Part shown: piece by piece, positions 2,892 to 22,535 of the stretch
How positions within the stretch are numbered: the first letter of the stretch is position 1
Layout: each line of letters begins with the position of its first letter
From: a virus
Length of the DNA stretch: 45,267 bases
Strand: one strand, 5' to 3'
Virus record (IMG/VR): IMGVR_UViG_3300046690_000241
Span: 1-45,267 of that record
Program-made: the position numbers and the translations under genes
Notes under the pieces: generated by a model
What the model saw: only the letters and a program-made list of their open reading frames with translations
What the model was told of the DNA's origin: nothing
Databases searched by the model: none

Positions 2892-2902
2892 GTAAGTGAA
2901 CG
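2892..2902 (-). promoter_or_regulatory. Repeated late-operon element CGTTCACTTAC, site A
   Basis: On the minus strand CGTTCACTTACCCC follows immediately after the stop codon of the 1902-residue virion gene and lies about 50 bases before the fibre adaptor start. The same 11 bases occur at 17757-17767, 20316-20326 and 22525-22535, all on the same strand. This site and 17757-17767 share 14 bases. Confidence 0.5.
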
Positions 2903-5900
2903 TTAGTGCTTAGGCGCACGCCCCAGCGCTACGCCTTCGGCCAGGTCGAGCGGCCCTTGTGGGCGCTGCTTGCCGCTCGCTACGTCGGCCAGATACTGTG
3001 CCGAGCCGCCGGCCTGGCCAAGCCCCGGAATGTGCAGGCCCATGCCTGCGGCGTTCGCGATGTCTTTGATCGGCGCATTGACGTGCTGACCGGTCGCCAG
3101 CTTGACGACATCTTGCCCCGCGCTGACGAGCGTATTGAGGAACGACTCGACGCCAACCTGGCCCGCGTGGCTGTAGCCTTCGACCATCGCCGCGGCGTCG
3201 CGCACAAACGGGACCATGCCGGCCACTTCAATCGCAATCGACTTGGCGATCCAGTGCGCCCAGCCATCCTTGTCGCTCGGCGGCCCTTCGGTCAGGTAGC
3301 CGGCCCATATCGCCGGCACGATCAGCGCCATGAAGCCGCGCGCGAGCGTTTGCGGGTTGCTGATACCGGCGGTGCGCAACTTGTCGGCGATGTCGGCCGC
3401 CTGACCATAGCTGTTGTTCATAAAGCCGTACAGCGTCGTGAACATCTTCACGGCTTCGGAACTGTTGTTGATCACCATCGAGCGGGCCGACGTGATGTTG
3501 CTGCCGTGCGCTTCGCGCACGACCTTGCTCGCGTAGGCGACGGCCTGTTCTTCGGTCATCGGCTCGCCAGTGCCGCCCATATTCTTTGGGATGCCGACGG
3601 TGACAGCGCGGTCGTACGCGGCCCACGCAGTCGGCACGGCCGTCATCATGTCGGACCACGCGACAGCGGCGTGGCCGAACCGCTCGGCCTTGCTGATCTT
3701 GCTTTCGGGCTCGAACAGGTTCGCCGACATCGCGCGGAAGTCGCGATCCTGCTGCAGCAGTCGCGCGCGGATCTCGGGGAATTTCTCCTGTGCGCCGCGG
3801 ATCTCGGCGGCGTAGTTTGTGCCCATCGCCGCGAAGCGCTGCGCGAGGAACTTCTCGCCGCCCCCGGTGAAGTATCCGCCCGTCTTGATCGCGGCCGAGC
3901 CGCCGTGTTTCAGCACGGTCGAGATGCGGAACGCGATGCCGTTGATCACCAGCCCGGTGCGCGAATACTGCAGGATCTTGCCCAAGGCGCCCACTTCGCG
4001 GTCCTGGTTGTCGGCGTTTGCGACCTTACCTAACCACTCCTGCAGCGAGCGGTACGCTTCCGGCCCGTACGTCTTCTGGAACTGCCGGCGGAAATCGCCA
4101 TTCGTGATGATCTTGTGCACGTCGATCAGCGCCTCGCGGTATGCGAGATCGTGAATCGATTCGGTCATCGTGCTCGGGATTGTGTGGAAGTCGAGATCCA
4201 CCACGTCGGTATAGCCCTGGTTCCGCGCGTTCAGCGAACCGTTGGTCGTCGTGTCGGGGCGATAGTACGACTTGCCGAACAGACCCTCGCCCGGGTCGAT
4301 CGCACGGCCAGCAGCTTCTTTCTCGCCGCGGCGCGAGCGCAGCGGATCGTACTTGATCGCGGCATAGCCGCCGCGCTGCTCGCCGAACTTGGTCTTGAAC
4401 GCGCGCGGCTCGATGCGCTCGGGCGACGTGTTGCCGAGACGCTGATTCATCGCGGCCATGTCGGGCCAGTGCTTGTCGTACTGGTCCCACACCGACTGGA
4501 CGGCGGTCCAATCCTTCTCGGTCATGTTGTCGTGCAGGAAGCGCCACACGTCTTGCGGGTTCCACTTCCAGCCCTGCGTCATCTTGTCGAAGTTCGACTC
4601 GTTGCCGACGTGCAGCGCGATGCCGAGCATCCGGCCGCGCGTCATGCGCAACGGAACCTGCTGCCCGTCGGTGCTGCGGTTCACGTCCATCAGCCGGGTA
4701 TTCGGCACGCCGTCTTTCAGGCTGTCTTGCCACTTGCGGCCCAAGTGGTCGGCCATCTTCTGGAAGTCATCCGACATACCTTTCAGCATATCGACTTCGT
4801 GATAGTTCGCGCGGAACACCGGCTCATAGATCGCTTCACCGAACGGGCCGAGCAACTCGTGCATGTCGTACTGGTTGCGCTTGTACTCCTGCGGCTTGAG
4901 CTGGGCGCGGATCGCGCGAAGCTGCGACGTGAGGTGGTCAAGCGCAATCTTGAACGGGTTGTTGCTGCGGTCGCTTGGCTTGTCGAATATCTCGGCGTCG
5001 CTGAACTGGTCGCCGCGCGCCTGCATCTTCGGGATCAGATGCTCGGTGACATACTGCTGGATGTCCTGCTTCTCGCCGTTGATCGTCGCAGTCTTGCGGT
5101 CGCGGCCGATCTTTTCCAGCGACTGCACCGCGTCGTGCAGGCCGCGGAACTGCTCCATGGTCATGTCGCGGTACGGCGTGCGGAACGTCGGGTCGAGCAT
5201 GTCGGGCGACACGTTCGGCGCCATGCCAAGCGCGGTTTGCGATTCGACCCAGCGTTCGAGATTGATCTGCTGGCGTGTCGGCGTGTCGACCGGGTTCGTG
5301 CGCAAGTCGAAGCGCGCGAGCATGTCGTCGATCTGGTCGCGCACGTCAATGTCGATCTTGCCGCGTACGCTGTCCTTGTTGAACTTCTTCAGGTACTGCA
5401 GCGACTTCAGCACTTCGGCCGCAGCCGCGCGCGCGGTCTTTTCCAACTGGTTATTCAGCAGCTGGTTGCGCTTCTGCTGCGCGGCTTCGGTCAGGTCGCC
5501 TTTGAGCCGGGCAGTATCGGCGGCTTTGCCGGCGCGCGCTTCGGCCGAGCCGTACTTCGACGCGTTGATATCGCGCACGCGCGCCTTGGCGATCGTCGTC
5601 TCGGCCACGGCCTTAGCTGCTTTTTCGAGCACGCGCACGCCGCCCGTCGCTTTGGTCAGCGCCTTATATTCGGTCGCGATAAAGCGCGTGCGCACTTCGT
5701 TGTGAATCGCCTGATTCGCGGCCGTGTTCATTGCCTGCGGTGACGTAATGTCGCCATACTTCTCAAGCATGCGCTGGTCGGTCAGCGCTTCGACGACATC
5801 GCGGCGCGGTTCCGCGTCGGCAATCGCCTTCGTCATTTCGTCGGCGCTGGCGAAGCCGAAGCGCTCGGCAACCAGATCAGCCGGCAGCGGGCGTTCCTTG

Positions 5901-8611
5901 TTCGCTTCGTTCAGCAGGAAGTCTTGCGCGGCGTAGGCCGGTTCCTTGGCTACGTCTTCCTTGACCTGTTCGCGGATCGTGGCGCGCTTCGTGGCGACAT
6001 CGGCTTTTACTTCCTTGCTCGCGCGTTCCTTCGCAATCTCGGTGAAGCGCATGTCGCGCAGCGTGCGCGCGGTCAGTTCGTCCGATGCTTCGAGTGTCGC
6101 GTCGTTGCCGAGCGCGTGGTACGCCTGGAATTCTTCCGGCGACATGCCGGCTTCTTCGGGCGTGCGGAACATCGGCGTGTACGCGCGCTCGGCTTCGGCG
6201 CTGCGGATAGCGTCATTCGTCGCGAGTAGCCGGTCGAACACACCGCGCACTTCGGGCGACAATTGCACGCCGAGGTTCTGCAGCGAGCGGTACACGTTGA
6301 TCATCCACGCGCGCACGCGCTGGAACACACCCTGCAATTCCGGTGTCGGGGCTTTGCCTTCGAACAGATATGATTCGAAGCCGCGCGCAAACTGCTCGTG
6401 CATGCCGCGTTTTTCTTCGAGCGACATGCCGCGCCATGCTTCCGGCGTCGTGCCCATCCACTGCGCCACGGTGTCGAAGTCCTTGCTGACTTCCGGCAGC
6501 GAGCCATCCTTCGCCATGTGACTGAGCATTTCCAGATGGAAGTGCCCCAGCTCGTGCACGAACGTCGAAAGATCCGCGTCCTTGTTCAGCGTGATCGTGC
6601 TCGGCGCGCTGGTGATGTCGTCGGAGAATGAGAGCTTGCCGCGCGCGTCCTGCGTAAGCGCGTTCGCGCCCGGCGCGTCTTCGGCGGTGATCTGCAGCGG
6701 GTAGCGCTGGAACATCGATTCAGGCGACAGGCCCGCGCGTGCGCCGGCCGCGGTGTAGCTGTCGCGCACGAGCGCGGCATAGACCTTGTTCACGTCAGGC
6801 CGGAAGCGGTTTGCCTGCGTCAGCTGGTCGAGCACTGTGTCGTGCACAACCTGCGCGGATTGTGCCACTGCGTCGTCGTTCGCCTTGTCCGCGCTGGTGG
6901 TCTCCTGCGCCTGCTTGAACGTGTCGACGTGCGACTGGTAGAACTCCTGCGCCTGCTGCTGCGTCATGCCGTCGGGGTCGGTCTTCAGGTGAGGCATCAG
7001 CACGTCCTGCATCGGGCCGCCTGCGATGTGCGTCGCGAAGTCTTCGACCGGGATCGACACGTCGCCGCCAGTCGCGAGCGCTTCGGGCAACTGCTGCGCG
7101 ACGCGCGGCATCGTCGACTCGACATCCCCGATCTTCACGCCTGACTGGTTGAGCGCGTTCGCGAGCGTGGCGCCGTCCACATAGACGTTCTGCACCGGAC
7201 CGTCGGCGTTGGCCGTGGCCACGAAATCCTTGAACGCCTGCGGATCGCGCGGGCGCAGCTTGGAGTTTGCCGCCGATGTGGCGAGATCCGTGAGTGTCTG
7301 CGCGTCGCCCATCGCAACGTCAGCGCGCGCGGCGTCGGTCAGCCACGCACCCGTCGCGCGGCCCGCGCCGTGCAGCGCGAACACGGAGTTCAGACCGTAG
7401 TCCATGACCTTCTGTGCGGTCGTGCGGCTATCCCACGGTGACGAACCCTGAATCGCGTCCATCGCGGCGTTCACGCCGACCACGCGCGCGAGCGTCTGCG
7501 CGGCGGTTGCGTCGGGCAGGATGCGTCCGGCCGCGCCGAACACGCCACCCATCTCGGCGCCGTGCAAACCCTGCAGGCCGATCGTCGTCAACGCGGATTC
7601 GGCGCTGTTCTGGTTGAGCGCGTCGCCCGTCGCGGTAATCGCGCTCGCGAGCCCCAGCGTGGACGCCTGACCAATCACGTCTTTTGCTGCGGCCTTCGCG
7701 AACGATTCGCCGGCCACGTGTTCGAGCAACGAACCGCCGATCTTTTCGACGGCTGCCGCGCCGAGCTTCAGCGGTGCGCCCGCGATGAAGCCGGCGAGGT
7801 TACCCGCGCCGCTCGCGACACCGCCCGCCGTCGTCTGCGCCGGACCGTTCACGTCGGGCGCGAGGCCGGCGGTGAATGCGTTCTCGAAGCCCTGCGCGAA
7901 CTGCGTCGGGATTTCCGAAGCACCGCCGACCGCGTCGCGCGTCTCGCCGACGGTCATGCCGTTCTGTTTCGCGTAATTCTGGATGAACGCCTGCGCGCTG
8001 CCGGCGCCCTGGGCGTTGCCGGTGGGCACCGCGTCGCCCATACCGAACAGGTTGCGCCCCCAATTGATCAGGCGTTCGCGCAGCGGCAACGCGCTGTTGT
8101 CGGGCTGGAAATAGCCCGTTGTGCCGGGCGCGAGCGGCACCGTATTGCCAGCCGGGGCGAGCGCGCTCGTTGCCTGCTCGACCGACTGCAGCCCGCCCAC
8201 GTCATCGTGCGCGATCTTCGCGTTGTTCTGCGACTGGTAGAACGCAGCCGTGGTCGGGAACTGCTTCGCGAGGGTCTGAAAGTCGATGCTGCTGATCGCG
8301 GCCTTCTGCTTCACCGCGTCGGGGAACGCTTTCACGCTGTCGACCGGGGTGCCGGTCTGCTGCGCGAGGCGCTGCATTTCGGCTTCGTAATCCGGGTTCG
8401 CGCCAACTGCGAGCGCGATGTTGCTTTGCGCCGTCTGCGCGGTGCTCTGCAGATACGAAGTGGCAGGGCTGACCGCGGGCACGGGCCGCGCATCCGGGGT
8501 GAACGGATTAGGAACCGTGGTCGGCGCCAGGTCAACGCTAACCGGCGCGGCTTGTGGCGTCACCTTCCCTTCGAATGAAGTGCCGGAATCCGGGACAATC
8601 AGGTCAGCCAT
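2903..8611 (-). CDS. Very large internal virion / ejection protein with HELGH peptidase-like motif
   Basis: 1902 residues, by far the largest gene. It follows the lysozyme-domain virion protein by a TAATG overlap, the place held by T7 gp15/gp16-type ejection proteins. Visible parts: a Pro/Ala/Gln-rich N-terminus; a Gly/Ala-rich segment at about 230-420; a zinc-peptidase-type motif HELGH at 686-690 inside FVHELGHFHLEM; a long charged helical region at about 830-1150 rich in Ala, Glu, Lys and Arg; and a C-terminal part (about 1690-1800) with MFTTLYGFMNNSYGQAAD followed by a hydrophobic stretch (ALIVPAIWAGYL), similar to domains of phage 'polyvalent' proteins (LPD38-like, from memory). It probably enters the host with the DNA. 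The peptidase could process virion proteins or host targets; activity is inferred from the motif only. Confidence 0.75.
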   Translation of the reverse strand: MADLIVPDSGTSFEGKVTPQAAPVSVDLAPTTVPNPFTPDARPVPAVSPATSYLQSTAQTAQSNIALAVGANPDYEAEMQRLAQQTGTPVDSVKAFPDAVKQKAAISSIDFQTLAKQFPTTAAFYQSQNNAKIAHDDVGGLQSVEQATSALAPAGNTVPLAPGTTGYFQPDNSALPLRERLINWGRNLFGMGDAVPTGNAQGAGSAQAFIQNYAKQNGMTVGETRDAVGGASEIPTQFAQGFENAFTAGLAPDVNGPAQTTAGGVASGAGNLAGFIAGAPLKLGAAAVEKIGGSLLEHVAGESFAKAAAKDVIGQASTLGLASAITATGDALNQNSAESALTTIGLQGLHGAEMGGVFGAAGRILPDATAAQTLARVVGVNAAMDAIQGSSPWDSRTTAQKVMDYGLNSVFALHGAGRATGAWLTDAARADVAMGDAQTLTDLATSAANSKLRPRDPQAFKDFVATANADGPVQNVYVDGATLANALNQSGVKIGDVESTMPRVAQQLPEALATGGDVSIPVEDFATHIAGGPMQDVLMPHLKTDPDGMTQQQAQEFYQSHVDTFKQAQETTSADKANDDAVAQSAQVVHDTVLDQLTQANRFRPDVNKVYAALVRDSYTAAGARAGLSPESMFQRYPLQITAEDAPGANALTQDARGKLSFSDDITSAPSTITLNKDADLSTFVHELGHFHLEMLSHMAKDGSLPEVSKDFDTVAQWMGTTPEAWRGMSLEEKRGMHEQFARGFESYLFEGKAPTPELQGVFQRVRAWMINVYRSLQNLGVQLSPEVRGVFDRLLATNDAIRSAEAERAYTPMFRTPEEAGMSPEEFQAYHALGNDATLEASDELTARTLRDMRFTEIAKERASKEVKADVATKRATIREQVKEDVAKEPAYAAQDFLLNEANKERPLPADLVAERFGFASADEMTKAIADAEPRRDVVEALTDQRMLEKYGDITSPQAMNTAANQAIHNEVRTRFIATEYKALTKATGGVRVLEKAAKAVAETTIAKARVRDINASKYGSAEARAGKAADTARLKGDLTEAAQQKRNQLLNNQLEKTARAAAAEVLKSLQYLKKFNKDSVRGKIDIDVRDQIDDMLARFDLRTNPVDTPTRQQINLERWVESQTALGMAPNVSPDMLDPTFRTPYRDMTMEQFRGLHDAVQSLEKIGRDRKTATINGEKQDIQQYVTEHLIPKMQARGDQFSDAEIFDKPSDRSNNPFKIALDHLTSQLRAIRAQLKPQEYKRNQYDMHELLGPFGEAIYEPVFRANYHEVDMLKGMSDDFQKMADHLGRKWQDSLKDGVPNTRLMDVNRSTDGQQVPLRMTRGRMLGIALHVGNESNFDKMTQGWKWNPQDVWRFLHDNMTEKDWTAVQSVWDQYDKHWPDMAAMNQRLGNTSPERIEPRAFKTKFGEQRGGYAAIKYDPLRSRRGEKEAAGRAIDPGEGLFGKSYYRPDTTTNGSLNARNQGYTDVVDLDFHTIPSTMTESIHDLAYREALIDVHKIITNGDFRRQFQKTYGPEAYRSLQEWLGKVANADNQDREVGALGKILQYSRTGLVINGIAFRISTVLKHGGSAAIKTGGYFTGGGEKFLAQRFAAMGTNYAAEIRGAQEKFPEIRARLLQQDRDFRAMSANLFEPESKISKAERFGHAAVAWSDMMTAVPTAWAAYDRAVTVGIPKNMGGTGEPMTEEQAVAYASKVVREAHGSNITSARSMVINNSSEAVKMFTTLYGFMNNSYGQAADIADKLRTAGISNPQTLARGFMALIVPAIWAGYLTEGPPSDKDGWAHWIAKSIAIEVAGMVPFVRDAAAMVEGYSHAGQVGVESFLNTLVSAGQDVVKLATGQHVNAPIKDIANAAGMGLHIPGLGQAGGSAQYLADVASGKQRPQGPLDLAEGVALGRAPKH

Positions 8612-10812
8612 TAGCGGTTGCTCGCGGTTTTGAAGTGCCAGTAAGCACCGAGCAGCTGGCCCGGTGTCGGGTTCGATACGCCGTTCGCCTTGAAATCGGC
8701 TTTCAGCTTCGGTAGCACGTCGTCAGGAATATCGCCCGGCGTCATCGACATCATGTTCAGGGTGGTCGGTGCGCGCTGGATCGACATGAAGCCGAGGCCC
8801 AGATGGTTCTGGAACGTGACCGACTTCGTGAACAGCGTGTCGATGTGCTGCTCGATGTCGGCTTCCGTGAACTTCTTTCCGGCCTGGTGCTGTGCGTCGA
8901 GAATGCTTTGATTCACAAACTGGCGGATACCGCCGATCTGCGACACGGCATCCGGGTCCGCGTTGAAACCTGTTGACTTCGGATAGGGGTTGACGCCCAT
9001 CGATTGCAGGCGCTGCGACAGTGTTTCGTTCACCGCGCGCAGATTCAGACTCCCCGGCGCATTCGAACCGGTGTTGTTGATCAGGTCCGCGCGCTGCTTG
9101 GACAGCGTCTTGAAATCGTCCACCGACAGGTTCTGCGCCTGTACCTGCCATTGATCGTTCGTCATGTTCGCCATGATCTGCGGCGATGTGACGAGCGTCT
9201 GGTAAAGCGCGGTGTTCGTCGTGTTCGTGCCTTCCGACATGTTCTTCGCGTACGACTGCAGGCCCGGCAGATCCTTCGGATTCACCGCGGCGAGATCGGC
9301 CGGGTTGATCGATGCCCAATTGCCGCGGTTCGACGCGAGCGTGCGCTGTACCTGCGCCACTGCCGCAACGTCGCGTTGATCGATCGCCTGCGTCTGCTCG
9401 TTGTATTGCTGCGTCGCGAGCGTGACGGCCTGCTGCATCCATTCAGGTTTTTGTTGCAGGACCGGATTCGCGCGCACCTGGGCAACCACGTCGACCAGTG
9501 CCGGGCGCGTCGTGTTGACGGCGCCTGACTGGTACGCCGCGACGTTCTTTTGCACATAGTCGCGCCCGGCATCCGAGATGATCGGCTTGCCGTCGGCGCC
9601 CACAGCGTTGATCCAGTTACCCGGTGCGCCTGCTGCTTGCGCCGCAGCCATAGCTTTGTCGAGCGTTCCCGGGCCGTCGTGGTAAGCCGCCCATGCCTTG
9701 GCGGGATCTCCGTAGCGCTGTACCAATGTGGTCAGATAATCGCGGCCCACGCGTGCGCGTTCGGCGAGGCTGTTATCTGCGGCGGGGCGAACGCCATAAC
9801 CCGGATCGGTATTGGTGCTGTCGACAACCTGCATCTTGCCGCGCGCACCGGTCGGCGAAGTGACGACTGTGCCGTCTGCGTTGTAATCGCGGCTGCCCGA
9901 TTCAGACTGCGCGGTGATCGCGAGCATGCGCGAAAGCGGGCTGTTCGACATCTGCGGCGCAACCGAAGTCATCACGCCGCCCACAACCTGGCTGGCGACC
10001 TGCGTGCCGAGATACGTGTTGAGCTTGCCGTTGACCTTGAGAATGTCGTCGGCCGTCATCTGCGGCGAATACTTCGCCAGCAGCTGGTTCGCGTAGGTCG
10101 TTTGCCCCTGCTGCAGCGCCGCGTCGATCGCGCCGGTCAGCGCGTTGCTTTTCATCAACGTCTGGTTCGCTTCGATCTCGGTCGCGGCGCTTCCGTTGAT
10201 CTTGCCCGCCTGGTACGTCGCGGCGTCGATCGCCTGCAACCCCTTGTCAATCTGGTCGGGGTTGTTGAAGCTAAGTGCGACCTGATTCGATGCGAGCTTG
10301 ACCGTGCCTTGCTGCGTCGACAGCGCGTACGCCTTGAACTGCTGGCCTTCCCATTGCGTGGTCGCGCCGTGGAACTGCGTGGCGATATCGTGCGCCTGTT
10401 CATTGAACATGCGCAACTGCATCGGGTTCGACAACTGCGCGCTGATCTGCGACGCGCTGTCGGTCAGCTTGCCGGTGTATTCGTCGGCCAGGCTCATGCC
10501 GCTATCGCGCTGGACTGCGGCCGCGCCGGTCTGTGTCATCACCCCGCTTTGCGGGTTGTACATCAGATCCTGCTGCGTGGTCTTGAGCTGGTTGACGGCA
10601 TCATTGACGCGCGTCTGGTTCGCCAGATTCTGCGCATCAATGATCATCTGCGAATGCACGTTCGCGGCCTGCCCGAGCGCATCACCGGTCGCGCTGAATT
10701 GCTGCGCGCCCTGATCGAGCAGCCCGGCAGACACTGCGGTCGACGACTGAACGTCAGGCGCCTGGCTTGGCGTTACCTGCTGCGAAGGATCAAGGGAAGG
10801 TACGACGGGCAT
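8611..10812 (-). CDS. Internal virion protein with lytic transglycosylase domain
   Basis: 733 residues. The segment at about 290-390 is a soluble-lytic-transglycosylase fold: RMLAITAQSESGSRDY with the likely catalytic Glu304, then TGARGKMQV, a downstream YLTTLVQRYGDPAKAWAAYH and DGPG. The flanks are Gln/Asn/Ala-rich and helical, as in ejection proteins. It plays the role T7 gp16 fills with its N-terminal lysozyme: local opening of peptidoglycan during DNA ejection. Its start overlaps the stop of the upstream virion gene (ATGA) and its stop overlaps the giant gene (TAATG), so the three are probably made together. Confidence 0.85.
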   Translation of the reverse strand: MPVVPSLDPSQQVTPSQAPDVQSSTAVSAGLLDQGAQQFSATGDALGQAANVHSQMIIDAQNLANQTRVNDAVNQLKTTQQDLMYNPQSGVMTQTGAAAVQRDSGMSLADEYTGKLTDSASQISAQLSNPMQLRMFNEQAHDIATQFHGATTQWEGQQFKAYALSTQQGTVKLASNQVALSFNNPDQIDKGLQAIDAATYQAGKINGSAATEIEANQTLMKSNALTGAIDAALQQGQTTYANQLLAKYSPQMTADDILKVNGKLNTYLGTQVASQVVGGVMTSVAPQMSNSPLSRMLAITAQSESGSRDYNADGTVVTSPTGARGKMQVVDSTNTDPGYGVRPAADNSLAERARVGRDYLTTLVQRYGDPAKAWAAYHDGPGTLDKAMAAAQAAGAPGNWINAVGADGKPIISDAGRDYVQKNVAAYQSGAVNTTRPALVDVVAQVRANPVLQQKPEWMQQAVTLATQQYNEQTQAIDQRDVAAVAQVQRTLASNRGNWASINPADLAAVNPKDLPGLQSYAKNMSEGTNTTNTALYQTLVTSPQIMANMTNDQWQVQAQNLSVDDFKTLSKQRADLINNTGSNAPGSLNLRAVNETLSQRLQSMGVNPYPKSTGFNADPDAVSQIGGIRQFVNQSILDAQHQAGKKFTEADIEQHIDTLFTKSVTFQNHLGLGFMSIQRAPTTLNMMSMTPGDIPDDVLPKLKADFKANGVSNPTPGQLLGAYWHFKTASNR

Positions 10813-11444: not shown

Positions 11445-11902
11445 TATCGTTTCATCCCGAAGCGGTGGAACGGCAAGCCGAAAACACCGTAGGGCTCAGT
11501 CTCTTTCTGTACGGTGAAGCCGAGGCGAGCGAGCCAGTAGACAGACTTCAGGCTGCGCGCGTCGACATAGTTCAGCAGCGTCGCGTATTTGTCGCTCATT
11601 AAGTGAACGTACGCGCGGCCGAGCTTCGTGAGCTGCTTCGGTGCGCGCTCGATCGCGGGCGTCCCGAGCATCCACGGCACGCCGAAGTCTGCCGCGGGCG
11701 TCACACCGAACAGCCCCGCCGGCTCGCCGTCCACTTCGATGGTCCACAGCAGCGTCGAGGCTTCGGCGCCCTGGCGCATCACCGCAAGGCAGTCGCGGTG
11801 CCCGCTCGATCCGTGAATTTCTTCGATGTCGGCGGTGCGCAGATTGGCGGCAATCGCTTCGACATCCCCGGCGCGTACGGCGCGCACAATCAGTTTTGCC
11901 AT
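11444..11902 (-). CDS. T7 gp13-like GNAT-fold protein (DUF2833)
   Basis: 152 residues. The C-terminal half (KYATLLNYVDARS, then YWLARLGFTV) parallels T7 gp13 (KYDTLWNYV, then FLKTIGAVF), a small protein of the internal-virion region with an acetyltransferase-like (GNAT) fold. The position between tail tube B and the gp14-like gene is the same as in T7. No clear acetyl-CoA loop is visible, so catalytic activity is doubtful; a role in virion assembly is more likely. The 10 bases CGTTCACTTA occur in this gene (11600-11609) but in coding sequence. Confidence 0.65.
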   Translation of the reverse strand: MAKLIVRAVRAGDVEAIAANLRTADIEEIHGSSGHRDCLAVMRQGAEASTLLWTIEVDGEPAGLFGVTPAADFGVPWMLGTPAIERAPKQLTKLGRAYVHLMSDKYATLLNYVDARSLKSVYWLARLGFTVQKETEPYGVFGLPFHRFGMKR

Positions 11903-11904
11903 GC

Positions 11905-14157
11905 CTAGCCGCCTATGGACGCTTCGATGGTCATGGATGCCACGATCAGCGGCAGTGGGTCCGATTGCCGGATATACACCGAGCCGTCATCGTCCCAACC
12001 GGGCGACATGTCGAGTTCGATCACCCCGGTGATCAGCGCGGGCGGCGAACCGTACGGCTCGGTCGTGCGCTGCTTGTACTGCACCAGTTCGTCGAGCGAT
12101 GGGCCTGCGAAAATGCCCGACGAGTTGTGCACGCGCAGCCATACGCGGTTGATGTTTTTGACCGCGCCCTGGCCGTACCCCTGCGCCATGAACGAAAAGG
12201 GTAGCGTCTGCATGTCCGCGGTGATCGGCAACCCCACGGCCACGATGCTGGCGGCATGCTGAAGCGCGACCGCGCCATTCGTGACAACCTGCTGGGGCTG
12301 CACCGCGCCGTCGGCGAGTATGCTCACCGTTTTGCCTTCCAGGTGATCGAGCCCGGCGACAGTCATTGTCGACGTGCCCGAATACAGTACGCCGCAATCG
12401 ACGAAGAAACTGTCGGTGAGCGCTTCAACCTGGCGGCTGTGCATGCGCTCGACGTAGCGCACCTGACGCCCGTTGACCGTCCGGTTGACGATCACATACG
12501 GCACCGACTCACTGCCTTCCGTGACGACGCAAACCGATTCGAACGTGCCGTCCGTGTCGTGGTGGTGCCATGCCGACACCTTATTCGCTGGCGAATAGGT
12601 GAGTCCCAGCAGATTGCCGTTCGACGATACGCACCACATGATCGGGTAGGGCGCTTTCGCATACGCCATATCCGCGATGGTGAAGAAGTCGAACAGGTGC
12701 GGCGCCATCAGGCTGATGTCCTGCGTGACGTATCCGCCGGCGTAGTAGTTGTACGTCATCTCGCCGACGTGGCCGCCCAGCGCCATCGCATAGAGCAGCG
12801 AATTGCTGACCGTCACCGGCACGACGTTGGACGCGCCGGTATAGCCCTGCGGCTGTATCGACAGCGTGCTCGGCGTTAGCGCCTGCGTGGCCGAACCGTT
12901 GGCGGTTACCGCCCATTCGGCGCTGGACGTGAGCAGCACGAGCTCTGACAGCGGCACGATATGGCGGATCGTGTTCGCTTCGCGCGCGGCGATCCGGAAC
13001 ACGAGCGCATCGGTGTCGCGCGACGGTGTGCTCGACGACAGGTTCGACTCGGTGCCGGTGCGCGTCATCCACAGCGTTTGCGGCAGCGTGATCGTGCTGG
13101 CGAATACGCGCCGCTGCTGGTCGTAGCTGACCGCGCTGGGGTAGTTGTTGATGTTTGCGAACGGGTTCGCCAGTTCCGGCGGTGTGGTCGCGGTGTCGGG
13201 GACGATGTTGTTGTCCACGACGATTGTGTCTTCGGTCTGCGCAATGAACGCGTAAATGCCCTGAAACTTGCGGTACACGTTGTAGCGCGCCGCGCCGGGC
13301 GTGACTGACCACGTGATGATGTTGGTGTAGCCCGCGAGCGTCAGGTCGTTATTCGCAATCGACGTGGCAGAGGCCAGCGATTCTTCCCCGGTCGACGACA
13401 GCGACGTGACCAGATACACGTAATCGATATAGTTCGGCGTGCCTGTGGTGCCGTGGACCGCCGTCGCGAGCACACCGGTTGGTGGCGTCATCGACGAAAC
13501 AAAGCTGATGTTGGTCAGCGTCCAGTTCGCCGCGCCCAGCCGGCGCAGTTCCGCAGGCGGGTATTTCGGGTGAACGATCGTCATCACGTCGGCCGATTGC
13601 ACATAGTGCAGATCGAACAGATCCGCTTCGGCGTACGGCGTGGGCAGCGTGTAGACGCGCGCCGCGGTGGCCGGTCCATTCACGCGCGTCAGGTCGAGAT
13701 AGTTGCCGGGAGGATCGGTGAGCCTGAAGGTGGTCGGCGTTGCGTCGCGCACGACCCCATAGACCGATGCGGTTGCGGTCTGGACGTACACCCATTGCCC
13801 GCCGGAAAAGCTGTTCGCCGCGTTCACGACGTTGCCGACGACTAGCGCGGATACCGGTGCTTCGAGCAGCGTCGCGCCTTGCGTGTGAAAGCGGACGTAC
13901 CGGTCGCCGAATTCCAGCACCATGGTTTGTGTCGTGCTGTAGGTGAACGGGATCAGCCGCGATTTCTTCGTGCTGTCCACGGTTTCCAGTACGAAGGCCG
14001 TGCCAGCGCGGTTGACGGCCGGACCGTGCGGCAGGGTGACGAAGTTGCGGCACGTCGCCAACCCGGTCTGGAACTGGTCGAGATCGACGCGGCCGAACAG
14101 TTCCGGCGTGATCTCGCCAGCGGCGAACGAGCGGAGCAGGTTCTTTATGTTCGGCAT
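11905..14157 (-). CDS. Tail tubular protein B (nozzle), T7 gp12-like
   Basis: 750 residues, starting MPNIKNLLRSFAAGEITPEL. This opening, with LATCRNFVTLPHGPAVNRAGT just after, is characteristic of the nozzle protein family of short-tailed phages. The remainder is mostly beta-strand with Thr/Ser-rich loops, including fibronectin-like pieces around ITWSVTPGAARYNVYRKF. The start at 14157 overlaps the gatekeeper stop (TAATG); longer in-frame starts would run back into the gatekeeper gene. The protein forms the lower part of the tail through which DNA exits. Confidence 0.9.
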   Translation of the reverse strand: MPNIKNLLRSFAAGEITPELFGRVDLDQFQTGLATCRNFVTLPHGPAVNRAGTAFVLETVDSTKKSRLIPFTYSTTQTMVLEFGDRYVRFHTQGATLLEAPVSALVVGNVVNAANSFSGGQWVYVQTATASVYGVVRDATPTTFRLTDPPGNYLDLTRVNGPATAARVYTLPTPYAEADLFDLHYVQSADVMTIVHPKYPPAELRRLGAANWTLTNISFVSSMTPPTGVLATAVHGTTGTPNYIDYVYLVTSLSSTGEESLASATSIANNDLTLAGYTNIITWSVTPGAARYNVYRKFQGIYAFIAQTEDTIVVDNNIVPDTATTPPELANPFANINNYPSAVSYDQQRRVFASTITLPQTLWMTRTGTESNLSSSTPSRDTDALVFRIAAREANTIRHIVPLSELVLLTSSAEWAVTANGSATQALTPSTLSIQPQGYTGASNVVPVTVSNSLLYAMALGGHVGEMTYNYYAGGYVTQDISLMAPHLFDFFTIADMAYAKAPYPIMWCVSSNGNLLGLTYSPANKVSAWHHHDTDGTFESVCVVTEGSESVPYVIVNRTVNGRQVRYVERMHSRQVEALTDSFFVDCGVLYSGTSTMTVAGLDHLEGKTVSILADGAVQPQQVVTNGAVALQHAASIVAVGLPITADMQTLPFSFMAQGYGQGAVKNINRVWLRVHNSSGIFAGPSLDELVQYKQRTTEPYGSPPALITGVIELDMSPGWDDDGSVYIRQSDPLPLIVASMTIEASIGG

Positions 14158-14864: not shown

Positions 14865-14889
14865 ATTCGCTCACCGATACGCGAGCCGT

Positions 14890-15126: not shown

Positions 15127-15151
15127 GTCTTGCGCTCCGATTCAGTTGAAG

Positions 15152-15171
15152 GGCCGGGCCGAAGCCCGGCC
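15152..15171 (-). terminator. TTCG tetraloop hairpin after the cement gene
   Basis: GGCCGGGC (15152-15159) and GCCCGGCC (15164-15171) pair perfectly; on the minus strand the loop reads TTCG. The sequence after it (CTTCAACTG) has no real T-run, so it is either an inefficient terminator or an mRNA-stabilising 3' end for the abundant capsid and cement messages. Confidence 0.5.
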
Positions 15172-15176
15172 ATCCA

Positions 15177-15632: not shown

Positions 15633-15666
15633 GGCGTACTACTCCTGTGTTTTCGTTTAAGAGCAA

Positions 15667-15680
15667 GCCACCGGGGTGGC
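15667..15680 (-). terminator. Short hairpin after the major capsid gene
   Basis: GCCACC (15667-15672) pairs with GGTGGC (15675-15680). On the minus strand TTGCTCTT follows. It may be a weak terminator or a 3' stabiliser between capsid and cement genes. Confidence 0.35.
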
Positions 15681-15700
15681 CCGCACCTTTGCGCTGCGAA

Positions 15701-16723: not shown

Positions 16724-16735
16724 GATGTGCGCCCC

Positions 16736-17398
16736 TTATTTCTGGTTCGGATAGAGACGGTTCTCGATCGGCGTGTTGGCGCGATCTGCCTGCGCCGCCG
16801 CACCGGTAACGAGCCGGCCGTCTTCACTGATTGCCTTGCCTGCCTTGACCATGAACCGGACGACTTCCGGGTGATTGCCAAGACCGCTTTGATTCAGCAG
16901 CGTTTTCAACGCAGGCGAGCCGAACGTGTCGAGCGCTTTCTTTGCGACGCCCAGGTTTTCCGGCAGCTTGTCGCCGCCGATTTCCTTGTCCGTCGTGGTC
17001 TGTTCAGCCCACTCGGCGGTCATCGTCTTCTGCTGCTCGACCAGCTGCGCCGCGAACCCTTGCGCCTGTTTGGCGCCGAGATCTGCAACACGCTGTGCCT
17101 GCTCCTGCGTCAAGCCGAGTTCCTTCGCCGTCGCCTTCAACTCGTCAAGCGCTTCGCCTTTCAGGTCAACGCCTTCGGGCAGCTTGAATTCGTAGACGAC
17201 TTCCTTTGCGGCTTCATCGGTCTTCGCGGCTGCGTCGTCCGTTTTCGCTGCATCGGTCGGCTGTACATCGGTGCTCGTTGCCTGCGTGGTGCTGGCTTCG
17301 GGCGTTGCTGCCTGGCTCTGCGATGCGTCGGCGGGCGCTGCCGTCGTGCTGGTCGCGTCTGCCGGTGCCGCCTGGCTATCAGTGGTGGGGTCAGCCAT
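16736..17398 (-). CDS. Capsid scaffold / assembly protein
   Basis: 220 residues. The first 65 are Ala/Thr/Asp/Ser-rich and disordered. Residues about 75-150 are helical and charged (ELKATAKELGLTQEQAQRV, then QAQGFAAQLVEQQKTM), and the C-terminus is basic (ENRLYPNQK). This layout immediately upstream of the capsid gene is that of phage scaffolding proteins, which direct shell assembly and then leave. No protease motif is seen. The start lies inside the last codons of the Bbp19-like gene (overlap of 8 bases). Confidence 0.8.
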   Translation of the reverse strand: MADPTTDSQAAPADATSTTAAPADASQSQAATPEASTTQATSTDVQPTDAAKTDDAAAKTDEAAKEVVYEFKLPEGVDLKGEALDELKATAKELGLTQEQAQRVADLGAKQAQGFAAQLVEQQKTMTAEWAEQTTTDKEIGGDKLPENLGVAKKALDTFGSPALKTLLNQSGLGNHPEVVRFMVKAGKAISEDGRLVTGAAAQADRANTPIENRLYPNQK

Positions 17399-17726
17399 TT
17401 GGTTTGTCCTTTACCTTCGATTCGTTCGCCATCTGCGCGTACATCTCGGCACCACCGTCGATCGAATGGATCTGTGCCATGAGCTTTAGCGCAATGCTGC
17501 GTTTGCCTTCGTTGAAGATCGACCAGTTCGCGTTACCGTCGAACGACTGCTGGTACAGCCTTGCGTCGCCGAGCAGGCGCCACATGAATCGACGACCGCG
17601 TTTGCCGCTCATAAGCCAGCGGATATCGTCCAGCTCAACAGCGGCTTCGAACTTCGACTGCTCTTTTGTGGCCGCACGCTGTTCGTCCAGTGCGGCAAGG
17701 TCGGTCGGGTTGAAGTCGCTGCTCAT
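17391..17726 (-). CDS. Bbp19-like head protein
   Basis: 111 residues with a core WLMSGKRGRRFMWRLLGDA and GKRSIALKLMAQI. This matches the small BPP-1 Bbp19 family found between portal and scaffold genes; its role is not established. The start is preceded by the conserved element at 17757-17767, about 30 bases upstream, and has no strong Shine-Dalgarno. Confidence 0.7.
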   Translation of the reverse strand: MSSDFNPTDLAALDEQRAATKEQSKFEAAVELDDIRWLMSGKRGRRFMWRLLGDARLYQQSFDGNANWSIFNEGKRSIALKLMAQIHSIDGGAEMYAQMANESKVKDKPNG

Positions 17727-17756
17727 GAGTGCGGAGAATAAGGGCGTGTGCCTGGG

Positions 17757-17767
17757 GTAAGTGAACG
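17757..17767 (-). promoter_or_regulatory. Repeated late-operon element CGTTCACTTAC, site B
   Basis: On the minus strand CGTTCACTTACCCC follows one base after the TAA of the gene at 17769-18089 and precedes the Bbp19-like start by about 30 bases. It shares 14 identical bases with the site at 2892-2902. Confidence 0.5.
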
Positions 17768-17768
17768 G

Positions 17769-18089
17769 TTATTTGCCATAGATGCGGTTGGCGAGCGGCT
17801 TCGGCTCGCTGTTGCCGGCGGCGAGTTCCATATCGGTGATCTGCAGCGACAGCGAGTTATCGGCGCCGTCCTGGTTCTCGTATTGCGACACGCTGCACAC
17901 TTCGACGAGCGCGGTGAGTTGCATCACGCTGCCCACCGCCGGCATCTCGGTGATGCCGAGCTTTGCCAGATCCTCATCGCAAAGACAGATCGTCAGGCCG
18001 TACGGATAAGCGGGCGCGTCATCGTCGTCTGGACCACCCAGCATCGTTTCGGACTTGGCTTCCGCCGGGGTGAGCTTCATCGAGATCAT
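17769..18089 (-). CDS. Small head protein between portal and Bbp19-like gene
   Basis: 106 residues. It begins MISMKLTPAEAKSE, has an acidic patch (GGPDDDDAPAYPYGL) and then a compact beta region with ITEMPAVGSVMQLTALVEV. Proteins of this size and pattern occur next to portal genes in BPP-1-like head modules and are sometimes called capsid staple proteins. I recognise the family type but not the exact member. The start is coupled to the portal stop (ATGA). Confidence 0.6.
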   Translation of the reverse strand: MISMKLTPAEAKSETMLGGPDDDDAPAYPYGLTICLCDEDLAKLGITEMPAVGSVMQLTALVEVCSVSQYENQDGADNSLSLQITDMELAAGNSEPKPLANRIYGK

Positions 18090-19912
18090 TGCGGGCCGCC
18101 TGTGTATCCGGACAGATTGCTCATGACATCGGACAGCGCATTGCTTGCGCCACCCTGCGTCGGTGCCTGCGCTGCAGTTTTCGCCGTGTCTGCGGCCTGC
18201 TGCATGGCGGCCTGCTGCTGCGCCTGCTGTGCGGCCTTGGCGCGAGCCTGGCGCGTCGCGTCGCGCTGATCGGGGTCGACATCGAGCCCCGGATCGGTGC
18301 CGAGCGCATCGGTGTATTGCTGATACCAGCCATCGGGATCGAAGTTGTCGAGCACGGTCGGTGGTTGCTGCGCGTTCACCTGCATCATGGCGACGGTGCC
18401 GAGCGCCATCGTCAGCTTGTCGATGCTGTTGGTGCCGATCTGCTTCTGTGCCTGCGCGAGGATCGAGACGAACTCGACCTGTAACTGCACGCCGGCCAGT
18501 TCTGGCGGGGGCGGCGGCAACAGGCCGGCTTCGACGACGATGTCGAACGCCGCGTCAACGAGCGGCTTGAGCAGTTCATCGTGCAGGCGCTCGATCACCG
18601 GCCCGAGCATCAACATCTTTTCTTCGTGCAGCTCTGCGACTTCCGTCGCCGTCATGTTCGCGTTCGTGTTGTTCGCGAGCATGAGGAACAGGTCTTCGTA
18701 GAAGATCATCTTGATGCGCGAACGCACGTCTTCGATGTCGGCGAGCAGGTAGTCGAGCCGCAGATTGACTTCGTAGATTGAGCGGATACCACCGTTCGGG
18801 GTGGCCGAGTCGGCGTAGGAGATGCCGCCCGGCAGCGTATCGATGTCGTGATTCTTCAACGAAGTCGGCACCTGAAGGGGTGGCTTCGTCATGTAGTCGA
18901 TCGCCTGGCCCTTACGCAGCTGCTCGTGCTGCAGCTGGCGAATGTCGCCTAGCGCGTCCATCGCCGGCCCATTGCCGTAGATGTCGCCGCCGTAGGTCGA
19001 CCAGCGCGGTGCGACCACGCGGAATTTCTTGAAGCCCGACACGGACAGCAATGCGTTATCGCCGCCTGTCGTGCCCATGTTCGCTGTCTGCTGTGAATCC
19101 GCCGAGCCACCGAGTTCCAGATACGTCGAAGTCCACGCCATGTTGCGCGCATCGGACTTGCTGTGATCGCGGTCTTCGTTCGGCTCGATACAGTGGATCA
19201 CCGTGCGCCACACGTCCAGATTGCCGGTGTCGTACATCTGGCGGCAGTTGTCGCTCACGTTCTCGTAACCGAACTGCTTCACGAGCTGGGCAACCGTCTT
19301 CTGGAATTCGCGATAGAGCGTGTCGACTTCGCCGCGATCACTGGTCGAAATGCAATACTCGCCGGCCGTCAGCGGGTACATGCGGATCACGTCCTCATAG
19401 TCGGACATGATGATCGAAACCCCGGTGCCGAATGCGCCGATTTCCTCGTACATCGAGTGCAGCGACCGGTACACGTTGGACCGGTTGAAGATGTCGAGGA
19501 TCAGCTTCGTGACATCGGCGCACCACGTCTTGACGGGCTTCTTTTTGTTCAGGTCGTCGTACGGTGTCTTGAGCGCGATCCACGGCCGTGCGGGCGACGT
19601 TGCCCCGGCCATCAGCCCGGCGCCCAGCACGCGCAGCGATTTGGTGGCCGTGCTGTCGAAGATGTTCTGGTTGCGCCGGTTGCCGCGGTTGCGGTCTTCC
19701 ACGAAGAAGCGGCCTGCACGCGGCAGGAGGACATTGCTGATGTCCTTGTACTCACGAATCCACGACGACCGTTCGTTCTTCAGCGCGTACCAGCGCTGCA
19801 GAATCAGTTCCTTGCGCGTCTTCACCGGCTTCGCATTGCCGCCCGATTGACTCGGTTTGTCGGCGGTTGCGTCCGGTTGCGCGCTCTGGTCGTTCGTGAG
19901 CAGGGTTGCCAT
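18086..19912 (-). CDS. Portal / head-to-tail connector (T7 gp8-like)
   Basis: 608 residues. The core from about 35 (RWYALKNERSSWIREYKDI) through LLPRAGRFF, FDSTATKSLRVLGAGLMAG and SPARPWIAL is diagnostic of head-tail connector proteins of short-tailed phages. The middle has GNGPAMDALGDIRQLQHEQL, and the C-terminal tail is Gln/Ala-rich. Twelve copies form the DNA channel at the capsid vertex. The start overlaps the preceding small gene (TGATG) and the stop overlaps the next start (ATGA). Confidence 0.93.
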   Translation of the reverse strand: MATLLTNDQSAQPDATADKPSQSGGNAKPVKTRKELILQRWYALKNERSSWIREYKDISNVLLPRAGRFFVEDRNRGNRRNQNIFDSTATKSLRVLGAGLMAGATSPARPWIALKTPYDDLNKKKPVKTWCADVTKLILDIFNRSNVYRSLHSMYEEIGAFGTGVSIIMSDYEDVIRMYPLTAGEYCISTSDRGEVDTLYREFQKTVAQLVKQFGYENVSDNCRQMYDTGNLDVWRTVIHCIEPNEDRDHSKSDARNMAWTSTYLELGGSADSQQTANMGTTGGDNALLSVSGFKKFRVVAPRWSTYGGDIYGNGPAMDALGDIRQLQHEQLRKGQAIDYMTKPPLQVPTSLKNHDIDTLPGGISYADSATPNGGIRSIYEVNLRLDYLLADIEDVRSRIKMIFYEDLFLMLANNTNANMTATEVAELHEEKMLMLGPVIERLHDELLKPLVDAAFDIVVEAGLLPPPPPELAGVQLQVEFVSILAQAQKQIGTNSIDKLTMALGTVAMMQVNAQQPPTVLDNFDPDGWYQQYTDALGTDPGLDVDPDQRDATRQARAKAAQQAQQQAAMQQAADTAKTAAQAPTQGGASNALSDVMSNLSGYTGGPQ

Positions 19913-20229
19913 CAGCTACCCAGCAGCGTGTTCGAGCCAAGGCCGCCAGCACCGCCGAGATTGAGCGCGGAGTTCGACACGCCGCCCGATCCGGTCAGCA
20001 GCGTGGATGCCGGGCCGCTGTTCACGCCGGCCGCGGCGGGCTGGCCGCCTGCGTTCAGGTTCGACGTATCGGCGGCTGTGCCTTTCTGCGCCGTACCCGC
20101 AGCGCGGGTCGCATCAGCGGCGGCACCGCGCTGTTCGGCGGCCTGCTGGTTGGCCTGCACGTGCTGTGCAACAGCAGAGCCCGCAGCAATTGCGGCGCCA
20201 ATGCCGGCAATGATCAAGGGTCCGCACAT
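19912..20229 (-). CDS. Small virion-region protein with hydrophobic N-terminus
   Basis: 105 residues from an ATG at 20229, chosen because GAGGAA lies eight bases upstream and because it does not overlap the terminase gene. It opens MCGPLIIAGIGAAIAAGSAVA, one hydrophobic helix, followed by a Gln/Ala helix and a Gly/Asn/Leu-rich end (LNLGGAGGLGSNTLLGS). Similar small proteins with an LTG...LLG ending sit near portal genes in many short-tailed phages; their function is unknown. It may be a minor membrane-active virion protein. Confidence 0.65.
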   Translation of the reverse strand: MCGPLIIAGIGAAIAAGSAVAQHVQANQQAAEQRGAAADATRAAGTAQKGTAADTSNLNAGGQPAAAGVNSGPASTLLTGSGGVSNSALNLGGAGGLGSNTLLGS

Positions 20230-20239
20230 GGCAAGTTCC

Positions 20240-21811
20240 TCACGCGTAGGGGTTGTGCTCGCCACGGTTGCGAGGCATCGAATATGCGTACGGATCGTAT
20301 TCGGCGTGCCGGCCAGTAAGTGAACGCGTCAGGTCGGCAACTTTGGGCGTGTCGATCAATGCGAGCACGTAAGCGCTGGCCCAATCCGGGGATCGCTTGA
20401 TGCGCTTCTCGATGTCTTCGCGGGATTCGACCTGGACTGTCTTGCCCTGCACGCGCCACTTGGGCGCACACAGATCGGCCGCGAGACGCTTGTCAGGGGG
20501 TAGGGCTATGCCGTTGTTCGCGAGCGGGTCCAGCGCCTCGCGCATGCGCCACCACAACTCGGTGCGAAGGTTGAAGAAGCGCAGCTTGCCGGATCGGTCC
20601 ACACCGCGCGCAGCTTCCGACACGTTCACGCCGTACACCTGCACCGACATCTGGTTCAGGAAGTCGTACGGTGATGAGCCGACACCGATCACGTCGATGT
20701 GGATCGGTGCGCCATCGCGCAGGGCGGCGATCGTGTAGCCGGCGACCGTCGGCCCGTCAGGCGTCGCGCTGCCGGGTTTGACGATCGCTTCGTCGAACCA
20801 CATGCCGTGGCGGCGCGCGATGATCGTGTTATCGCGCCCGCCGCGCGCCACGTCCACGCCCATCGAGTCCATTGGCGGTTTGGCGTCGCGCTTCTCCCAG
20901 CGAGCCATTGCGATGTCGACCCATTCGGTCGGGATCAGCTGCATTGCGTCGTCTTCCATGCCTGCCTCAAATGAGCCGTACAGCATCTGCGAGCGCAGCG
21001 GCTCGGGCAGCGCCTGGAGCTGCGACACGTAGTTCGTGCCCACCAGGTGCGGGTTGTCTGTCACGCGTGAGGGAATGAACGTGCGCGAGCGTGGGATGAC
21101 AAGCTCGCCGCCGTGCTCGAACGGCGTGCTGTCTGCGACTTCCGTGTCGTGGCCGTCGACAGCTGCGAACCAGCGCAACTCGCCGGGCACAGCACGCGTG
21201 CCGGCGTACTTGCGGTCGATCCACGGCGCGAAGAACTCGATCAGCCAGCGACCTTCTGCGGACGACGGCGGGTTGAACGTCATCAGCGTTTGCGACTTCT
21301 GCTTGACGTCCGTCGTCCGGTTCCACGCCATCAGGAAGCGGATCTGAAACTCGGGGATCTCCGCGGCTTCGTCGTAGATGATCAGGTCATGCGGGCGGCC
21401 GCGATACTTCTGCTCGTCGCCCATGTTCGGCACTGAGCCGAATTCAATCCGCGCCTTGGCATTCGGCACTGTCCACACGCCGCCGCCGCCTTCTTTCGCG
21501 GACCAGCCATCGCGACCGCCAAGGATCTCGCCGAGACGGTCGACCATACCCAGGTGCTCGGTCCCGTTCTTACGGATCACAATGCACTTCTGGTGCTGCG
21601 TCAGCGCCTTGCCGATTGCGAGATCGGTCTTGCCGCCGCCGGCCGCACCACCGAATCCGATCACGTCGGCCGTGGACTCGTACGCCATCGTCTGCGGCCC
21701 TTTGAGCGGGCTCCACAGCGGTGGCGTATAGGTGGATAGCAGCATGTCCACTTCGGCCCGTTCTTCGGCCGTCATGTACGGTCGCAGGGCTTCCAGCTCG
21801 GCGGCGTTCAT
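20240..21811 (-). CDS. Terminase large subunit
   Basis: 523 residues. The ATPase has Walker A GFGGAAGGGKT at 52-62 and Walker B DLIIYDEAAEI at about 142-152 with the catalytic Glu. The RNase-H-like nuclease begins near 310 (MGVDVARGGRDNTIIARR) with acidic residues following. It packages DNA into the prohead together with the small subunit, two genes upstream. The start is coupled by ATGA to the small zinc-ribbon gene. The 11-base element found elsewhere between genes occurs here in coding sequence at 20316-20326. Confidence 0.93.
   Translation of the reverse strand: MNAAELEALRPYMTAEERAEVDMLLSTYTPPLWSPLKGPQTMAYESTADVIGFGGAAGGGKTDLAIGKALTQHQKCIVIRKNGTEHLGMVDRLGEILGGRDGWSAKEGGGGVWTVPNAKARIEFGSVPNMGDEQKYRGRPHDLIIYDEAAEIPEFQIRFLMAWNRTTDVKQKSQTLMTFNPPSSAEGRWLIEFFAPWIDRKYAGTRAVPGELRWFAAVDGHDTEVADSTPFEHGGELVIPRSRTFIPSRVTDNPHLVGTNYVSQLQALPEPLRSQMLYGSFEAGMEDDAMQLIPTEWVDIAMARWEKRDAKPPMDSMGVDVARGGRDNTIIARRHGMWFDEAIVKPGSATPDGPTVAGYTIAALRDGAPIHIDVIGVGSSPYDFLNQMSVQVYGVNVSEAARGVDRSGKLRFFNLRTELWWRMREALDPLANNGIALPPDKRLAADLCAPKWRVQGKTVQVESREDIEKRIKRSPDWASAYVLALIDTPKVADLTRSLTGRHAEYDPYAYSMPRNRGEHNPYA
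20316..20326 (-). promoter_or_regulatory. Repeated element CGTTCACTTAC, site C (inside terminase gene)
   Basis: Same 11 bases and same strand as the three intergenic copies, but located in the last 30 codons of the terminase gene, about 90 bases before the next start. It could be functional or coincidental. Confidence 0.3.
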
Positions 21812-22014
21812 CGCGTGATTTCGGTCAGGCAGTCCGAGCAGAAAAGCCGCGTGGGGCTGTCCTGCGTCACCTTGGCGATGTGGAATAGCGTGCTATGGCA
21901 CTTCGAGCACGCCGTGATGATCGCGGCTTCAACGTCGAGCGCTTCGCACAAAGGCTCGTAGTCCTCGTGCACGTGTTCAGCGGGGCGCAGCGCGCAGTCG
22001 TTAGAGAAGGTCAT
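21808..22014 (-). CDS. Small zinc-ribbon protein between terminase genes
   Basis: 68 residues with CSKC at about 36-39 and CSDC at about 59-62, a likely four-cysteine zinc site. The rest is acidic. It starts inside the terminase small subunit gene and its stop overlaps the large subunit start (ATGA), so it is made with the packaging proteins. Function unknown; DNA or protein binding is possible. Confidence 0.6.
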   Translation of the reverse strand: MTFSNDCALRPAEHVHEDYEPLCEALDVEAAIITACSKCHSTLFHIAKVTQDSPTRLFCSDCLTEITR

Positions 22015-22495
22015 CGCCGTCTTCCTGTTCGGCGCGGCGGCACGCGGCGGCCGCCTGGATCGCCGTGAGCTTGGCGGCGCGTTCGTCCGGTGTCATGTTC
22101 AGAGATTCGTTACCGGTCGTCACGTCGATGCGTTGACCGAACTTGCGCGGGAACCATATCGCGAGCAGCTTGAGGCGCGCGTCGACTTGCAGTTTGCGAT
22201 GGCCGAGCATGTCTTCGCGCACGACCTTGTACCCCTGCTCGCTGTCTTCAGTCCGCTCGCCGACCTTGGTCGTATCTGCGATTTCGAGCACTTGCTCGGC
22301 GATTGCGTCGCCACCTAATTCGCGCGCGAGCGTGAAGCGTTCGGAAAATTGCGCATGCACCTTGCGCCATTCGTAGACCGTAGTCCACGACGGCATGTGA
22401 TCGTCACGGCAAATAGCGCGCAGCGTCTCGCCGCAAGCAAGTCGCTCGCAGATTTCTGCATCTAGCGCGGGGGTGTAAGAAGTTGGGCGTCCCAT
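22001..22495 (-). CDS. Terminase small subunit
   Basis: 164 residues from an ATG at 22495, giving MGRPTSYTPALDAEICERL, the usual opening of terminase small subunits of this type. An upstream in-frame ATG (22504) and TTG (22516) are possible, and no strong Shine-Dalgarno marks any of them. The N-terminal part is a helix-turn-helix (GETLRAICRDDHMPSWTTVY) for recognising the packaging site, and the C-terminus is helical. It is the first gene of the packaging block. An element CGTTCACTTAC lies about 30 bases upstream. Confidence 0.85.
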   Translation of the reverse strand: MGRPTSYTPALDAEICERLACGETLRAICRDDHMPSWTTVYEWRKVHAQFSERFTLARELGGDAIAEQVLEIADTTKVGERTEDSEQGYKVVREDMLGHRKLQVDARLKLLAIWFPRKFGQRIDVTTGNESLNMTPDERAAKLTAIQAAAACRRAEQEDGDDLL

Positions 22496-22524
22496 GCACG
22501 GCATCGTGCAAGGCAACGGTTGAC

Positions 22525-22535
22525 GTAAGTGAACG
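22525..22535 (-). promoter_or_regulatory. Repeated late-operon element CGTTCACTTAC, site D
   Basis: On the minus strand the element begins one base after the TGA of the small HTH gene and lies about 30 bases before the terminase small subunit ATG. Three further copies on the same strand are at 2892, 17757 and 20316. Its place ahead of the packaging block would suit a late regulatory signal. Confidence 0.5.

Follow-up and report, generated by a model that had tools for sequence, protein, structure and literature searches.

A short repeated box at predicted late promoters of BPP-1-like podophages and the small helix-turn-helix protein that may read it

What is the role of an 11-base element, CGTTCACTTAC, that recurs on a single strand of a phage genome, mostly in short gaps between genes? 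The question arises in a virus record of 45,267 bp, which was analysed over its whole length (the window). The window encodes a temperate podophage of the BPP-1 kind, with genes for terminase, portal, capsid, internal virion proteins, a 1902-aa protein and a fibre, as well as for a primase-helicase, a DNA polymerase, CI- and Cro-like regulators and an integrase. Close kin are found among IMG/VR contigs and among the prophages of Paraburkholderia and Caballeronia. Positions 1-127 and 45141-45267 are identical, and 127 is a common assembler k-mer length; this 127-bp repeat at the ends probably reflects a genome of 45,140 bp that is circular or permuted, and not a biological terminal repeat. At the end of the late strand (41287-43053, minus strand) a 588-aa DUF7657 protein is encoded that has no PHROG match and is possibly the product of a lysogenic-conversion gene.

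The initial annotation had listed four exact copies of the element, and all of them are indeed located on the minus (late) strand, at 22525-22535, 20316-20326, 17757-17767 and 2892-2902 (boxes 1 to 4). Three of them start 0-1 bases past a stop codon, as had been noted: box 1 follows the gene at 22537-22773, box 3 that at 17769-18089 and box 4 that at 2903-8611. The gap to the next start is also close to what had been described and measures ~29-47 bases if translation begins at the ATGs at 22495, 17726 and 2844. The placement behind a stop codon is, however, incidental. In two relatives with inserted genes between g106 and g111 (L019 and L022), the box keeps with the downstream gene and is still found 30-odd bases ahead of g111, and the reading as a stop-codon-associated element was therefore dropped. 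The argument that four copies are unlikely by chance stands only in part. In dinucleotide shuffles CGTTCACTTAC is expected 0.01 times, but about 25 other 11-mers are also present 4-5 times in this GC-rich window, so that word counting alone is weak and the case for the box depends on comparison with relatives. Furthermore, the total of four was too low: a fifth copy, CGTTCACTTAA at 11599-11609 (box 5, minus strand), had been missed inside a gene. It was at first dismissed as a coding coincidence and later reinstated because relatives showed concerted change there. A copy at 13939, with neither a -10 hexamer nor concerted change, was rejected as a coding coincidence, and GTACGCATAT, 34 bases past box 2, is conserved TerL coding sequence in most relatives and not a second box.

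All five sites of the window have a sigma70-type -10 hexamer of the form xAxxxT that starts exactly 26 bases past the first G of the box. Among the matches to GTTCACxTA in the window, only these five have it at the fixed spacing; it is missing there for the matches at 13948 and 30561 on the late strand and at 18374, the sole match on the early strand. If sites are aligned on the box, xAxxxT at offset 26 is the one further conserved block. In 73 distinct sites that were picked by the box alone, the A at position 2 and the T at position 6 occur together at this offset in 95% of the cases, versus 0-4% at any other offset from 18 to 35. Since the hexamer starts at a fixed 26 bases after the first G, the box occupies the place of a -35 element; a spacer of 17 bp separates its core, GTNNNCNTA, from the -10, exactly as it would a canonical -35. 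There is no general consensus -35, the match to TTGACA having a mean of 3.1 out of 6 against a background of 2.7 and reaching at least 5 out of 6 in only 12 of 162 sites. The GTTCACA class counts against such an absence, as its TTCACA resembles TTGACA. With a generic host-promoter scan nothing was called at boxes 2-5.

Transcription is predicted to start 38 bases after the first G of the box (G+38). Box 1, with the -10 hexamer CACGAT at 22508-22503 and a predicted +1 at ~22496, appears to be the promoter element of the terS operon. The start of the terminase small subunit gene (terS, 22001-22495, minus strand) was re-assigned to the ATG at 22495, and its message is predicted to be leaderless. 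An inverted repeat, GCACGATGCCGTGC (GCGCGACGATTCGCGC in relatives), is present at 22496-22509 on the minus strand and overlaps both the -10 and the +1 in the promoter of terS. Box 2 is located within the C-terminus of the terminase large subunit TerL (20240-21811, minus strand) and, with the hexamer TACGAT at 20299-20294, would serve a unit consisting of the gene for a 117-aa protein and, downstream, the portal (head-tail adaptor) gene (18086-19912, minus strand). That this copy is coding had been recognized correctly; it is not incidental, however, and resembles the others as a promoter box. Box 3 (TATTCT at 17740-17735, predicted +1 at ~17728) is the putative promoter element of a phrog_528 gene (17391-17726, minus strand) and of the scaffold/protease and capsid genes. 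The ATG of this first gene, at 17726, lies ~2 bases past the predicted +1. Box 4 (GAAAAT at 2875-2870, predicted +1 at ~2863) would control the tail-fibre gene; the first gene after it encodes the tail fibre N-terminal protein (1900-2844, minus strand) from a Shine-Dalgarno-led ATG at 2844. Box 5 is embedded in the gene for a 152-aa internal virion protein; its hexamer, GACGCT at 11582-11577, is the weakest of the five, which counts against the promoter reading. At the start of the predicted fibre mRNA, a hairpin can be drawn around the Shine-Dalgarno sequence (2840-2866, minus strand), with a folding z-score of only -1.5. In L205-L222, other stems are found downstream of the homologue of the 1902-aa gene, and these still look complementary.

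The same geometry is found in the relatives. The first ATG of a long open reading frame is positioned at G+38 to +41 in 44 of the 57 terS (s1) sites; for the second-downstream sites the usual position is G+38 to +42 (34 of 39), and at both there is little Shine-Dalgarno match. On these grounds, the mRNAs of the terS and capsid-side operons should be leaderless or nearly so, with an ATG 1-2 bases from a predicted +1 that is not mapped. In the window, the fibre unit comes with a normal leader, and no ATG belonging to the portal unit is present at its +1.

The absence of motif enrichment in the late gaps of relatives had been named as a point that would speak against the initial annotation, and this test turned out in its favour. 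Boxes are present at the corresponding places, in the form of CGTTCACTTAC, CGTTCACATAC, CGTAACCATAC, CGTACGCATAC, GTTTCCATAA and others, with a single class per genome. Classified by their central triplet, they include GTTCAC, GTAACC, GTACGC, GTTTCC, GTGCGC and more. The triplet is the same in 113 of 117 within-genome site pairs; if each site is permuted among genomes (2000 permutations), the mean is 36 and the maximum 54. All four discordant pairs trace to one site of one genome, site 1 of L006. Around position 2980, this genome has GTACAC at site 1, as opposed to GTAACC at its other four sites, and an odd recognition helix, KQVVAKIC; a recent exchange of the cassette of helix-turn-helix (HTH) gene and box 1 is possibly the cause of the mismatch. 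The fibre site obeys the same class rule, and so do the two sites inside genes, where the encoded protein is altered with the class. In TerL, box 2 encodes RSxT, RNHT or RTHT (Ser, Asn or Thr), and box 5, which reads GTAACCTTA or GTACGCTTA in relatives, has the encoded His replaced by Thr or Arg (YVHL, YVTL, YVRL). Box class does not track portal phylogeny, the mean portal identity being 0.879 for same-class pairs and 0.864 for different-class pairs. A framed finder was defined by GTNNNCNT[AG] and an xAxxxT hexamer near the stop of the HTH gene, combined with a same-triplet copy downstream. Of 113 distinct HTH loci, 59 yielded a box; under each of six control frames, none of the 113 did. This strict finder left 54 of the 113 loci unsolved. 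It replaced a first repeat finder with a loose frame (57 of 97 loci versus 26 null windows, at most 4 for each locus), which was discarded because its null was noisy.

In most relatives, the gene that ends at box 1 encodes a 78-aa HTH protein. In the window it is found just upstream of box 1 (22537-22773, minus strand), and its product is the predicted late activator. Its recognition helix comprises approximately residues 55-62, which in a three-helix HTH model by AlphaFold belong to the second HTH helix with high confidence. A fold search of the PDB with this protein yielded generic HTH matches only, none at E<=0.001. The recognition helix varies along with the box. In 42 non-redundant protein/box pairs, with 270 residue-base comparisons, residue 60 (Y60) and the third base of the triplet rank first (z 10.8), and residue 59 (C59) and the first base rank third (z 6.9). 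Arg59 is accompanied by G in 12 of 12 cases, Cys or Ser59 by T in 10 of 10 and Gln or Asn59 by A in 4 of 4; Asp60 is accompanied by G in 8 of 8, Tyr or Asn60 by A in 10 of 10, and Lys, Arg or His60 mostly by C. Chemically, these pairings make sense. If solely proteins less than 60% identical are used, residue 59 predicts the first base in 35 of 41 cases (baseline 22) and residue 60 the third in 32 of 40 (baseline 17), each being the best of all residues. The rule recurs in distant pairs: the protein of L036, 38% identical to that of the window, combines RMxxxRIC with GTAACC as in L009, and those of L051 and L103 combine KSTxxDI with GTACGC as in L013. Residue 66 and some C-terminal columns also co-vary with the second base, and part of the signal may therefore be due to shared ancestry. 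That a phage-encoded protein reads the box is supported indirectly by the co-variation of residues 59 and 60, binding not having been measured.

The HTH region of the 78-aa protein matches the C-terminal part of the HNH homing-endonuclease families phrog_6156 and phrog_20467. Unlike these, the protein lacks a nuclease domain and has its cognate sites at several places in its own genome. This suggests, without proof, that the HTH was recruited from the DNA-binding module of a homing endonuclease.

The proposal of a late promoter or activator box, one of several made initially, is supported by the recurrence of the sites in relatives, the -10 at a fixed distance, the ATG at the predicted +1 and the co-variation with the HTH protein. 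We consider it very likely, in the absence of transcript or binding data, that the box is the activator-binding element of late promoters and that the 78-aa protein is the late activator replacing the -35 contact. Host RNA polymerase with its primary sigma factor would recognize the -10 hexamer, with the box core standing in for the absent -35 hexamer. The HTH protein, made together with the replication genes, would bind the box in place of the -35 contact of sigma region 4, residue 59 reading the first and residue 60 the third base of the triplet, and would recruit or stabilize the host sigma70 polymerase. The five late units (terS-terL, portal, capsid, internal virion proteins and fibre) could thereby be switched on together, and at the terS and capsid-side operons transcription would start at the ATG or 1-2 bases before it, giving leaderless mRNAs. 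The box, its spacing, the concerted change and the co-variation can be read directly from the genomes, while the late timing of transcription and the exact +1 are inferred.

It could also be imagined that the HTH protein, once bound to the box, represses late promoters that are otherwise driven by the host, or acts on them as a timing brake. The evidence for binding fits activation and repression equally, and the box overlaps the -35 region, a known location for repressors. However, without a general TTGACA-like -35 beneath the box, and with the host-promoter scan blank at boxes 2-5, there is no evident basal promoter on which a repressor could act. Moreover, the HTH gene is the last of a minus-strand unit with primase-helicase and methyltransferase genes, at the end of which it lies upstream of the late genes and away from the CI- and Cro-like genes. 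Activation, and not repression, is an inference that rests on the absent -35 and on this gene position, and a repressor seems improbable. An element acting at the RNA level, whether a processing site, an antitermination signal (nut/put-like) or a translational signal, would agree with three copies after stop codons, in short gaps and on one strand. Processing and antitermination, both suggested initially, are disfavoured since the box precedes its own predicted (unmapped) +1 by ~29-39 bases and would thus not be part of the RNA under its control; in two of the units, this +1 and the ATG are no more than 2 bases apart. Antitermination of the lambda Q/nut type expects its signal no further upstream than the transcript start. 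In addition, the recognition helix that co-varies with the box is a DNA-binding one, and Rfam and tRNA scans returned no match at the sites, which leaves very little room for an RNA-level role. Recognition by a phage RNA polymerase or sigma factor deserves just as little credit: there is a weak resemblance of the small HTH protein to sigma region 4 (TIGR02937, E 0.0027, a match well short of the cut-off), but 78 aa are too few for a sigma region 2, what follows downstream of the box is a -10 of the ordinary sigma70 type, and the ORFs scanned contain no match to a polymerase or sigma family, in agreement with the initial remark that no phage RNA polymerase is encoded. Finally, chance repeats or linkers left by recombination at module boundaries, for which the many 11-mers present 4-5 times and the intergenic position of several copies might plead, can be put aside as next to impossible, being already refuted by the fixed -10 spacing and by the concerted change at five dispersed sites, of which two lie within genes.

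The closest working analogue of the predicted system is the middle promoter of T4, a case of sigma appropriation, in which the host -10 is kept and a box near -30, bound by a phage protein (MotA, with AsiA), replaces the -35 (PMC2988021). The MotA box is at 12+/-1 bp from the -10 (PMC2988021). In both cases a small phage DNA-binding activator, here a predicted one, would be combined with a retained host -10 and a replaced -35. The spacing here, however, is 16-17 bp, and instead of a two-domain double-wing protein with AsiA as partner there is a single 78-aa HTH without known partner; the genes concerned are late structural ones and not middle genes. MotA is absent among the sequence and fold matches listed for the HTH protein, and an AsiA-like partner has no match in the ORFs scanned, small ones not having been covered exhaustively. 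Because spacing and protein fold differ, membership in the MotA/AsiA system is excluded. Lambda CII, Mu C and P1 Lpa are likewise small phage activators; their binding sites in sigma70 promoters are at the -35 or around it. In contrast to these, the box described here is a single asymmetric one with an N3 specificity core, no pair of direct or inverted repeats is seen, and the HTH belongs to the resolvase/HNH-endonuclease type.

Bordetella phage BPP-1 (Rauchvirus; L152) has the gene order of the window and, in Bbp27, an HTH protein that is 59% identical. Its box class is a different one, and its annotation marks no late promoters. With the frame used for the other genomes, the box GTGCCCGTGC is found at record positions 26293 (terS), 24131 (after TerL), 20746 (bbp19) and 6184 (the bbp9/mtd side), in all four cases on the late strand with the hexamer at offset 26, and for the first three with an ATG at about the predicted +1. 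Bbp27 is the predicted late activator of BPP-1. It is annotated as an endonuclease (26337-26573), likely a misannotation, since this stand-alone HTH is too small for a nuclease domain. In the literature on late transcription of BPP-1 and epsilon15 and on bbp27, as far as it was covered, which was incompletely, no account of such promoters was found. The late promoters and the late regulator proposed here concern a group to which BPP-1, the model phage for diversity-generating retroelements, belongs. The fibre/mtd/avd/brt unit of BPP-1, with mtd, avd, the template repeat and brt at 1756-6184, falls downstream of one predicted promoter, that of the box at 6184.

On a wider scale, and with less assurance than for the box itself, it seems likely that BPP-1-like podophages share an undescribed, widespread switch of late transcription. 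Leaderless late promoters would have their -35 contact replaced by a minimal activator that consists of a single HTH, related in sequence to that of HNH endonucleases. The specificity of this activator would switch repeatedly between lineages with a concerted rewriting of up to five dispersed promoters and a readable residue-to-base code. Such a regulon of five dispersed promoters shifting specificity together amounts to a natural experiment. The co-variation supplies a protein-DNA recognition code that can be tested, the activator-promoter pairs form a family of very small and apparently orthogonal members, and leaderless late mRNAs are predicted. In their late regions, Limnohabitans phage DC33, zth2-2 and ctQRb9 have two GTACCC boxes each, accompanied by the hexamer. 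DC33 (PQ492659.1, L228) is filed under Inoviridae, but it encodes a terminase and a portal of this podophage group, and the filing is a probable taxonomy error.
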